From the NCBI GenBank assembly GCA_036702865.1, contig DATNQD010000027.1, positions 310,001 to 374,000 of the forward strand: a stretch of DNA of 64,000 nucleotides, given 5' to 3'. Source of the DNA: Trichocoleus sp. (lineage in GTDB: Bacteria > Cyanobacteriota > Cyanobacteriia > Elainellales > Elainellaceae). Position numbers and translations under genes: made by a program. The notes beneath the pieces are model-generated. The model was not told the origin of the DNA and ran no database searches. It saw only the letters and a list, made by a program, of their open reading frames with translations. This document shows, piece after piece, positions 56,912-59,162 of this stretch. The first letter of the stretch is position 1; the number at the start of each line of letters is the position of its first letter.

Positions 56912-56933
56912 AAAAAAAGGGGCTAAAAGCCCC
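56912..56933 (-). terminator. Intrinsic terminator after the MoaD-like/thrC genes
   Basis: On the minus strand, GGGGCT, loop TTT, AGCCCC followed by seven T residues, about 55 nt past the MoaD-like gene stop. A strong terminator ending the thrC-MoaD transcript. Confidence 0.87.
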
Positions 56934-56987
56934 AGATTAAGAAGAAGATTGAAAAAGTTAGATTTTCAGCAGGCTCAGAAAATCAGC

Positions 56988-57263
56988 TCAACCACCTGCA
57001 ACAGCGGGAACAATACTCACCTCATCTCCAGCTTTAAGAGCCGTATTTTGCCCGTCTAGAAAGCGAATATCTTCGCTGTTGACGTAGAAATTGATGAATC
57101 GGCGCAAGTTACCTTGCTCATCGCACAGGCGGGCTTTAATTCCAGGAAAACTGCTGTCCAGCGAATTGAGCAACTCGGTAATTGTGCTGCCCTCACATTC
57201 GATCGTCGCCTGGGACTGAGTAAATTGTTGGAGAGGAGTCGGAATCAAAACTTTAACGGACAT
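56988..57263 (-). CDS. MoaD/ThiS-like ubiquitin-fold sulfur carrier next to thrC
   Basis: 91 aa from ATG 57263 ([15 protein letters not shown]). The beta-grasp pattern is clear, with [23 protein letters not shown] and [16 protein letters not shown]. The C-terminal di-glycine is the feature needed for adenylation and thiocarboxylate formation. It is downstream of thrC by 65 nt and ends at a terminator, so co-transcription is likely. A sulfur-donor role near threonine synthase recalls CysO-CysM of mycobacteria, but the actual acceptor is unknown. Confidence 0.9.
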
Positions 57264-57328
57264 AGTTAGAAGGATGAAAGTAGAAAAATGAAGAATGAAA
57301 GAATCAATGAACAAGAAGCTAGAGCATT

Positions 57329-58642
57329 CTAGACAATTACTTGCTGCCACTCCAGGCGATCGAGGGTTCTAGACCGCTCCAAAGCACGCTCAAAGCTTTC
57401 CAGTTTCGGTTCGATCGTCAAAGGCTCGCCAATATAGCCTTGCACTGCCTCTTGTGTCTTCAAACCGTTGCCCGTGATGTAAACAACCGTTGTTTCTTCA
57501 GGGTCAATTTTGCCTGCCTCGACTAGCTTCTTCAGCGTTGCGATCGTTGTTCCTCCAGCCGTTTCAGTAAAGATGCCTTCGGTTTCTGCCAGCAGCTTGA
57601 TGCCCTCAATAACTTCTTGATCGTTGACGGACTCAATATTACCGTTTGTCTTGCGAGCAATGTCTACGGCATAAACCCCATCCGCTGGATTACCAATCGC
57701 GATCGATTTTGCAATCGTGTTGGGCTTTACTGGCGTAATAAAGTCTCGCCCTTCGCGGAATGCTTGAGCAATTGGAGAACATCCCTCTGCTTGTGCTCCA
57801 CTGAAGCGAACCGTTTTCTCTTCGACCAAGCCCAGCTTGACGAATTCTTGGAAACCCTTATAAATCTTGGTAAATAGAGAACCGGAAGCAAGTGGTGCAA
57901 CGATGTGATCAGGCAGTTGCCAGCCAAGCTGCTCAGCCACTTCATAGCCAAGTGTTTTGGAGCCTTCGGAGTAATAGGGGCGCAAATTGATATTGACAAA
58001 GCCCCAACCGTGGGTATTTGCGACTTCTGAGCAGAGACGGTTGACCTGATCATAATTGCCATGGACTGCCATCACAGTAGGACCATAGATCAGCGTTCCC
58101 AGCACTTTTCCGGCTTCCAGGTCAGAAGGGATGAAAACGCAACAGTCTAACCCCGCATGAGCCGCGATCGCCGCCGTGGAATTTGCCAGATTTCCGGTAC
58201 TTGCACAGGAAACCGTTGTGAAGCCGAGTTCTCTTGCCCGTGTTAGTGCAACTGAAACGACCCGATCCTTAAAGCTGAGCGTTGGCATGTTCACTGCATC
58301 ATTTTTGATGAACAGCCGCTTCAGCCCTAGACGACGTGCCAGGCGGTTCGCTTGCACCAGGGGAGTCATGCCAGTTCCCACGTCAATGGGGTTGTCAGTT
58401 GTAACGGGCAGAAAAGGACGGTAGCGCCAGATTGAATTAGGACCTGCTTCGATACTTTGGCGAGTTACAACCCGACTCAGCGCACTATAGTCGTAAGCGA
58501 CTTCCAACGGACCAAAACAAAACTCACAAACATGGAGTGCTTTTGCTTCATACTCTGAGCCGCACTCTTTACACTTCAGTCCGGTAAAGGTTGCCCCTGT
58601 TTTTTGGTTATTGGAAGCCTGGGTGTCAATTGCCTGAGTCAT
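57329..58642 (-). CDS. thrC: Threonine synthase
   Basis: 437 aa. Converts O-phosphohomoserine to threonine with PLP. A zinc-ribbon-like N-terminus with C24, C27, C39 and C42 ([21 protein letters not shown]) precedes the fold-type II catalytic part; PLP Lys125 is in [13 protein letters not shown], with [19 protein letters not shown] and GNGLKTQEA. The presence of sulfur carriers on both sides on the same strand is noteworthy, since O-phosphohomoserine is also the substrate for homocysteine formation in plants. Confidence 0.95.
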
Positions 58643-58859
58643 GGAATACGTCCTCTTCTTCTTAATCTCAAATACGCTCGCAAATCTGCATTGGTCTAGC
58701 CTTGTGCGGTAAGGTTTGCAGATTTTGCCCTACCAGACTGAAAAAGATGGTATCACGCCTAAAACATGACGTCAAACATACCCGACTAAATTTATCGGGA
58801 TTAAATTGGCAAAGCTCTTTTCTGTTAGAGCAACCGATCGATGAGCTGAGAGCCATTTT

Positions 58860-59162
58860 CTACCCACCACTGACAGGCGGAATAAAAACAACTTCATCTC
58901 CATTGCTTAAAACCGTATTCGGTTCTACAAATTGCAGATTCACGCCAAAGCGGGTTAAATTACGCCACTGCTCAAGTTCTGGGTGCTCCGTTAAACACCG
59001 ATCGCAGACCTGTGCCACCGTTGTTCCAGGCGGCAAGTGTAGTACCATTTCTGATACGCCATAAGCTTCCTGGTATGCCGCAAACAATTTAACGGTGATA
59101 CTAATATTGTCGTTCGCGCTATCGCCATTCTTCGGCGGCTGAAGCCGCTCTTCCTGCACCAT
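58860..59162 (-). CDS. moaD: MoaD-type sulfur carrier (molybdopterin synthase small subunit-like)
   Basis: 100 aa with a short variable N-terminus and a beta-grasp core: ITVKLFAAYQEAYGVSEMVLHLPPGTTVAQVCDRCL and VLSNGDEVVFIPPVSGG. The C-terminal GG fits a thiocarboxylate donor. The closer match to canonical MoaD suggests a molybdopterin role, with moaE elsewhere. It lies 217 nt upstream of thrC on the same strand. Confidence 0.87.
   Translation of the reverse strand: MVQEERLQPPKNGDSANDNISITVKLFAAYQEAYGVSEMVLHLPPGTTVAQVCDRCLTEHPELEQWRNLTRFGVNLQFVEPNTVLSNGDEVVFIPPVSGG

Follow-up and report, generated by a model that had tools for sequence, protein, structure and literature searches.

A threonine synthase-like gene of Cyanobacteria and its di-glycine carrier as a probable MetM-MetO homocysteine synthase

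Introduction

In the window analysed here, a stretch of 64,000 nucleotides from the genome of a Trichocoleus sp., a gene that would be annotated as thrC (threonine synthase) is located between two genes for small ThiS/MoaD-type proteins, both ending in GG. The question raised by this locus is why a gene of this kind should be accompanied by sulfur carriers. The initial annotation took the gene for a threonine synthase and guessed that this enzyme, or a relative of it, might accept sulfur from the carrier. The guess is probably right for the downstream carrier only, and it is not new, since it concerns an orthologue of a recently reported system in which this chemistry was described. As cited in PMC12172450, Hasebe et al. 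(2024) identified Streptomyces MetM as a homocysteine synthase that uses O-phosphohomoserine and is accompanied by a carrier gene, metO. As far as the sequence comparisons go, the locus described here very probably encodes the cyanobacterial MetM-MetO, an O-phosphohomoserine-dependent homocysteine synthase and its sulfur carrier. The excerpts of PMC12172450 (Kim et al., 2025), a paper on Microcystis, note cyanobacterial homologues of MetM with reference to the Streptomyces work, and give 51.6% identity between the Microcystis 'ThrC' and MetM of S. albulus. Beyond that paper, no description of cyanobacterial MetM was found in the open-access literature searched.

Results

Two types of ThrC-like protein in Cyanobacteriia

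The argument rests on the following two genes.

57329-58642, minus strand: metM, a ThrC-like pyridoxal phosphate (PLP) enzyme of 437 aa with an N-terminal Cys-rich segment (would be annotated thrC)
56988-57263, minus strand: metO, a CysO/SAMP1-like sulfur carrier of 91 aa, with ATG at 57263 and the C-terminus AVAGG

The window gene is not the canonical threonine synthase gene of this genome, which is located elsewhere (L013). The window protein gave 342 bits with the thrC model TIGR00260 (cut-off 167); against solved threonine synthases its best score was 205 bits, while L013 gave 431-487 bits with its four best. In a phylum-wide sample, 46 of the 49 Cyanobacteriia encode a protein with 79-100% identity to that of the window, and all but one of these 46 genomes carry a second ThrC-like gene, at 34-40% identity. 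Over both genome samples, the copies in other Cyanobacteriia are 76-91% identical to the window protein, and seven MetM proteins of Actinomycetota are 53-59% identical.

In a phylogenetic tree, the MetM proteins of cyanobacteria and Actinomycetota form one clade (support 100/100, branch 1.57), apart from both the canonical ThrC and the long-type ThrC of haloarchaea, Chloroflexota and others. The tree was made from 66 rows, including 23 of 114 cyanobacterial MetM, 15 of 81 actinobacterial MetM, 14 of 41 ThrC and 14 outgroup rows, and S. albulus MetM itself is absent from the rows. It is rooted at the midpoint, several outgroup rows have long branches, and the canonical ThrC is not monophyletic against one basal row. 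Four proteins from the same phylum, outside the class (L292, L293, L294 and L295), are long-type ThrC of 36-40% identity and fall outside the MetM clade.

When all 195 MetM (114 cyanobacterial and 81 actinobacterial) were aligned with the 41 cyanobacterial ThrC, 47 columns were found to be fixed (at least 95%) in one way in MetM and in another way in ThrC. Seven of them fall in the N-terminal segment that ThrC lacks, and the GNAG loop is also among them, as are the positions of Ser155, Arg160 and Asn188 of Thermus thermophilus ThrC, which are occupied by Asn219, Tyr224 and Ser253 in the window protein. We take these three ThrC residues to contact the phosphate of the substrate, and the fixed residues of canonical ThrC are presumably those that define threonine synthase functionally; they are not kept in MetM. 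With the canonical ThrC encoded by L013 and the two types differing at 47 fixed columns, the naming of the window gene as threonine synthase is not upheld, and on these comparisons the gene is most likely an orthologue of metM of the MetM-MetO system. An AlphaFold model of MetM (mean predicted local distance difference test score, pLDDT, 74.8) adds nothing on specificity, because residues 118-121 beside the PLP-lysine, and others, have pLDDT below 50 and the best Protein Data Bank matches of the model are threonine synthases.

Linkage of metM with the carrier gene metO

The two genome samples together gave 118 cyanobacterial genomes with MetM, of which 114 loci were analysed, leaving out three partial matches (G118, G162 and G164) and one gene with an in-frame TAG (G172). 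The 81 actinobacterial loci consist of the best 80 of 581 confirmed candidates and one of Nonomuraea gerenzanensis. In 102 of the 114 cyanobacterial loci, metM is followed within 1 kb by a metO gene in the same orientation, one of these 102 being truncated by a contig end. The stop-to-stop distance is 281-953 nt with a median of 380, the six longest (919-953) belonging to family f33. The 12 loci without a nearby downstream metO comprise one at a contig end and members of families f46 (five), f17 (four) and f5 (two); in the three of these last 11 genomes whose carriers were surveyed (G076, G085 and G093), a carrier is encoded elsewhere that is neither beside moaE nor of the short ThiS kind. Of the 39 cyanobacterial family codes covered, 38 show the linkage, and f46 is the one without it. 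Among Actinomycetota, all 81 loci have, close behind metM and in the same orientation, a gene for a MetO-like protein with GG at or near its end, and in all of these loci the cyanobacterial MetO profile recognised the carrier (median 107 bits) while the MoaD profile gave 0. The linkage that the initial annotation had pointed out is thus not restricted to the lineage of the window genome.

The carrier MetO resembles two solved ThiS/MoaD-family proteins, 4n6e and 3dwg, which we take to be CysO proteins, and gave 55.6 bits with the SAMP1 model NF041918 (cut-off 60). GG is present at or near the end of all 101 full-length cyanobacterial MetO, and is strictly terminal in 98. Residues beyond GG are found in the other three (L099, L130 and L139) and in 15 of the 81 actinobacterial MetO, which would therefore need proteolytic trimming.

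The arrangement of three minus-strand genes, with the ThrC-like gene in the middle and 65 nt between its stop and metO, was confirmed from the open reading frames and the sequence. Both flanking carriers match Pfam ThiS over the cut-off (69.6 and 60.2 bits), and only three matches to this family exist in the genome of 5.93 Mb. The third fits TIGR01683 thiS and sits after a gene read by eye as thiE-like. Because two of the three matches flank metM and the metO linkage recurs across loci, the adjacency of metM and a carrier is beyond chance.

The upstream carrier and the limits of the operon

Two further features flank the metM-metO pair.

58860-59162, minus strand: moaD-like gene for a sulfur carrier of 100 aa with the C-terminus PVSGG, 217 nt before the metM start
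56912-56933, minus strand: intrinsic terminator 3' of metO, GGGGC-TTTTA-GCCCC-T7 (56933-56912)

The initial annotation regarded the two flanking carriers as alike. They differ in kind, the downstream one being CysO/SAMP1-like and the upstream one MoaD-like. Judged by its sequence and its genomic context, the upstream carrier is most likely MoaD, the small subunit of molybdopterin synthase, and a mere neighbour of MetM, not its partner. It gave 61.2 bits with TIGR01682 moaD, below the cut-off of 66.15; the genome has moaE elsewhere and no other candidate for MoaD, the remaining two ThiS-family matches being ThiS and MetO. A carrier is located beside moaE in five other genomes (G014, G076, G085, G089 and G093), and G087 lacks both moaE and a third carrier, as this assignment expects. 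Two exceptions are G036, which has moaE and only two ThiS-family matches, and G051, a genome of 3.8 Mb from the same class with moaE, no ThiS-family match and no MetM. Service of both carriers to MetM was considered and rejected: the upstream one is MoaD-like and is a neighbour of metM in no more than 16 of the 114 loci (of several families), and in all 16 the palindrome described below lies between the two genes. In G033, the MoaD-like carrier is fused to 5-formyltetrahydrofolate cyclo-ligase (L148:786-1640), and the frame at the carrier of G045 has the same length as this fusion.

The single strong terminator noted at the end of the cluster is present as a sequence, and its region (81 nt) folds with z -1.9. 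The terminator scan was not above expectation, and proves nothing alone because it gave 3 terminator-like sites against 3.9 expected. One transcript covering all three genes is not established because a conserved promoter-like element sits in the 217-nt gap before metM.

A conserved palindrome next to the probable metM promoter

This element of the window is as follows.

58747-58803, minus strand: operator and promoter, with palindrome CCCGAT-N7-GTCGGG (58799-58781), TTGACG (58775-58770), 17 nt, and TACCAT (58752-58747)

Comparison of the metM upstream regions revealed a palindrome followed by a promoter of the sigma-70 type, with the consensus AATCCCGAC-AAAAATA-GTCGGGTATGTTTGAC and then a -10-like box. 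When up to three mismatches were allowed, the 16-mer GTCGGGTATGTTTGAC was found in 91 of the 114 upstream regions, against 1 of 114 after base shuffling, and this count is the independent figure for conservation of the operator. A 33-bp matrix made from 79 sites exceeded 14 bits in 110 of 114 regions, a result that is partly circular, as the matrix was built from metM sites. By a simple rule, the palindrome arms are perfect over at least five bases in 86 regions, and a TTGACn-TAnnnT pair is present in 99, with a spacing of 17 nt in 71 and 18 nt in 25.

When 526,765 bases of the 5.93-Mb genome, in slightly overlapping stretches, were scanned with the matrix, it exceeded 8 bits only twice, before metM and 108 bp before the operon for a JAMM protease and MoeB. 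The second palindrome and promoter (L145:10105-10166) belong to a locus chosen for its enzymes before the motif was seen. A strong operator site is also located before the JAMM-moeB operon of G130. No operator was detected on either strand of the 81 actinobacterial metM loci (best -2.1 bits). There, an Rfam S-adenosylmethionine (SAM) riboswitch lies just upstream of metM in all 10 loci tested of the 81, while none was found at 20 cyanobacterial metM loci; an Rfam element at the window locus was likewise rejected, none being present in the window. From this distribution, metM-metO appears to be controlled by an RNA switch in Actinomycetota and by a putative DNA-binding regulator in cyanobacteria. 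The operator was not found described in the open-access literature searched, and the palindrome with its promoter is apparently the newest and an undescribed element of the system.

It is conceivable, if rather unlikely, that the palindrome is the transcription terminator of the upstream gene instead of an operator of metM. Its loop is A/T-rich and it scores as a terminator-like hairpin, though not above shuffled sequences. A terminator would not be expected to persist in 110 of the 114 metM upstream regions when a moaD-like gene stands upstream in only 16, nor to lie close to a TTGACn-17/18-TAnnnT promoter (the pair being held by 99 regions), nor to recur before the JAMM-moeB genes of two genomes.

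Expression and enzyme data for Microcystis

According to the excerpts of PMC12172450, addition of threonine to Microcystis increased homoserine and decreased methionine and SAM, and expression of 'thrC' was induced 10.5-fold and that of the adjacent carrier gene 6.8-fold. Addition of methionine returned thrC expression to the control level and relieved the toxicity. The authors also mention inhibition of homoserine kinase by threonine and reduced O-phosphohomoserine. As far as these excerpts go, the expression data mostly fit an assignment as MetM, while the enzyme data do not clearly do so. A methionine-repressed metM-metO operon fits the responses to threonine and methionine, leaving the rescue by alanine and the fall of methionine-pathway genes unexplained.

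The reading proposed for Microcystis, in which the gene is a second threonine synthase moonlighting as a threonine deaminase and the carrier is incidental or regulatory, is very unlikely to hold for the window gene. It agrees with the score against TIGR00260 thrC, more than twice the cut-off, and with the excerpts of PMC12172450, where both threonine formation and threonine deamination in vitro are reported for the Microcystis protein and methionine did not rise on induction. A second ThrC-like gene is, however, already present in 45 of the 46 MetM genomes; the linkage in 102 of 114 and 81 of 81 loci speaks against an incidental carrier; the actinobacterial orthologues are under a SAM riboswitch; and induction by threonine with reversal by methionine, as given in that source, is paradoxical for a threonine synthase. 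Addition of water may be the default reaction when no carrier thiocarboxylate is supplied, and the sulfur source tried, according to the excerpts, was Na2S only. The threonine formation and deamination in vitro may thus be those of an enzyme without its sulfur donor, although the authors argue otherwise.

E1-rhodanese and JAMM protease genes

In the window genome, the JAMM-protease gene (L145:10213-10722) ends 14 nt before a MoeB-rhodanese gene (L145:10737-11909), and the two form a pair on one strand in 39 of the 42 JAMM loci examined. Such JAMM and E1-rhodanese activities would be expected to trim and load a CysO-type carrier. A strict requirement for JAMM was considered and rejected, because only 63 of 86 MetM genomes, yet 4 of 10 without MetM, have a strong match (E 1e-15 or better; Fisher p 0.06).

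That MetM uses free sulfide, with MetO only regulatory or acting in another pathway such as tRNA thiolation, we consider equally hard to credit. An HPLC (high-performance liquid chromatography) peak of no assigned identity was obtained with O-phosphohomoserine and Na2S in the excerpts of PMC12172450, where a peak of this sort close to methionine was also seen when no sulfur source was supplied, and some lineages have no metO close to metM. The close linkage of the two genes in two phyla, the GG at or near the end of every full-length MetO (strictly terminal in 98 of 101), and the location of the E1-rhodanese gene under the same operator in the window genome all argue for a carrier that delivers sulfur to MetM.

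Homocysteine routes among Cyanobacteriia

Among the 96 Cyanobacteriia sampled, MetM was detected in 86 genomes, and MetY (TIGR01326) was over the cut-off in 18, with split frames in two more (G149 and G186). MetM alone is present in 74 genomes, both in 12, MetY alone in 8 and neither in 2. This complementarity gave Fisher p 3e-5, uncorrected for kinship, seven of the eight MetY-only genomes being of one family; the table mixes whole genomes and drafts, both genomes with neither being drafts (98% complete in 260 contigs, and 62% complete). No match to TIGR01326 at E 1e-20 was found in 60 of the 86 MetM genomes; the same search gave a match in 13 of 14 control genomes, over the cut-off in nine. 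In family f19 (seven genomes of 1.6-2.6 Mb), MetM is absent and MetY present in all seven, and MetY is followed by MetA in the one neighbourhood read. MetX matches above 300 bits were obtained in 11 genomes, each also with MetY. In most cyanobacteria, MetM is probably the principal homocysteine synthase.

The window genome has no MetX (E 1e-20) and no MetY over the cut-off; MetA and DUF39 were not searched for there. With regard to a classical homocysteine synthase, which the initial annotation held would count against sulfur transfer, MetX and MetY were thus not found, but doubt is left by L004 (L145:3029-4147), a cystathionine gamma-synthase/lyase-like gene about 6 kb from JAMM-moeB and the single full-length PLP gene of the Cys/Met-metabolism family in the genome. 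Because L004 is present, the homocysteine route of this genome is not closed by a pathway argument. The least probable alternative is that homocysteine is made here by L004, as a plant-like cystathionine gamma-synthase on O-phosphohomoserine, and a beta-lyase, with MetM secondary: L004 gave 473 bits with the cystathionine gamma-synthase model (cut-off 513), but does not reach the cut-off of any of the 25 NCBIfam models displayed out of 43, two enzymes are required for this route where one full-length family match exists (MalY/PatB-type lyases were not searched for), and 60 of 86 MetM genomes have no TIGR01326 match.

Discussion

The following steps can be proposed for MetM-MetO. An E1-rhodanese of the MoeB/MoeZ type, encoded elsewhere, would adenylate the GG end of MetO and convert it into a thiocarboxylate. 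MetM would eliminate phosphate from O-phosphohomoserine, residues being altered where ThrC presumably handles the substrate phosphate, and the MetO thiocarboxylate, replacing water, would then add to the PLP intermediate at C-gamma. The adduct would then be hydrolysed to free homocysteine and MetO, a step that the JAMM protease encoded beside the E1 may carry out in some genomes. Transcription of metM probably starts from the promoter beside the conserved palindrome, and the palindrome would be bound by a predicted regulator that would sense methionine, SAM or a related signal.

Several observations weigh against this scheme. No nearby metO exists in 11 of the 114 loci for which a contig end is not the reason; 12 genomes carry both MetM and MetY; and the window genome retains L004. 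A strong JAMM match is absent in 23 of 86 MetM genomes and present in 4 of 10 without MetM, and the operator was detected before the JAMM operon in 2 of 42 loci only, where it could be expected at most of them. In addition, the excerpts of PMC12172450 report that methionine-pathway genes go down under threonine, and that alanine also rescues, more fully than methionine.

A wider proposal has three parts: MetM-MetO would be the sole homocysteine route in most cyanobacteria; it would be controlled, in some lineages together with its E1-rhodanese/JAMM genes, by a predicted methionine- or SAM-sensing regulator on TnCCCGAY-N7-RTCGGGTATG next to the -35 box; and the 'threonine toxicity' in bloom cyanobacteria would be methionine starvation brought about by a loss of O-phosphohomoserine, to which the cells would respond by derepressing metM-metO. 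As a whole, we hold this proposal in even balance. If MetM is a homocysteine synthase, the 'threonine synthase' gene of most sampled cyanobacteria would fill a gap in the methionine pathway and its annotations would be corrected, and the 2025 result on threonine toxicity in Microcystis would gain a different explanation. The conserved operator, in turn, predicts a new regulator of sulfur amino acids and offers a direct way to find it.

MetM shares its fold and PLP-lysine motif with canonical threonine synthase (L013; 2zsj and 1uim), and differs from it in the 47 fixed columns, in the N-terminal Cys-rich segment and in the carrier neighbour. The CysO-CysM-Mec+ system of Mycobacterium tuberculosis is built from the same kinds of part, namely a CysO-like carrier, a MoeZ-like E1-rhodanese, a JAMM protease and an acceptor of the PLP beta family. 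CysO-CysM, which the initial annotation had offered as a parallel, is not a literal counterpart: the acceptor of the window is ThrC-like instead of a CysM-type sulfhydrylase, and its expected substrate is O-phosphohomoserine, attacked at C-gamma, instead of O-phosphoserine. In contrast to the CysO-CysM-Mec+ system, the JAMM gene is located elsewhere and is not found in every MetM genome.

In the thiocarboxylate-dependent methionine pathway of Wolinella succinogenes (Krishnamoorthy and Begley, 2011, as cited in an excerpt of PMC5764234), homocysteine is formed from a protein thiocarboxylate, as is predicted for the window locus. The window genome differs in having no MetY over the cut-off. The acceptor in W. 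succinogenes is reportedly MetY, acting on O-acetylhomoserine.

The closest relative is MetM-MetO of Streptomyces albulus (Hasebe et al., 2024, as cited in the excerpts of PMC12172450), likewise a ThrC-like PLP enzyme with a GG carrier downstream. The window MetM shares its clade with MetM-type proteins of Streptomyces, Kitasatospora, Nonomuraea and others, and has a C-terminal extension relative to that of Nonomuraea. In contrast to the Streptomyces system, a moaD-like gene lies upstream in a minority of cyanobacterial loci, and the window carries a DNA palindrome and promoter in place of the SAM riboswitch.

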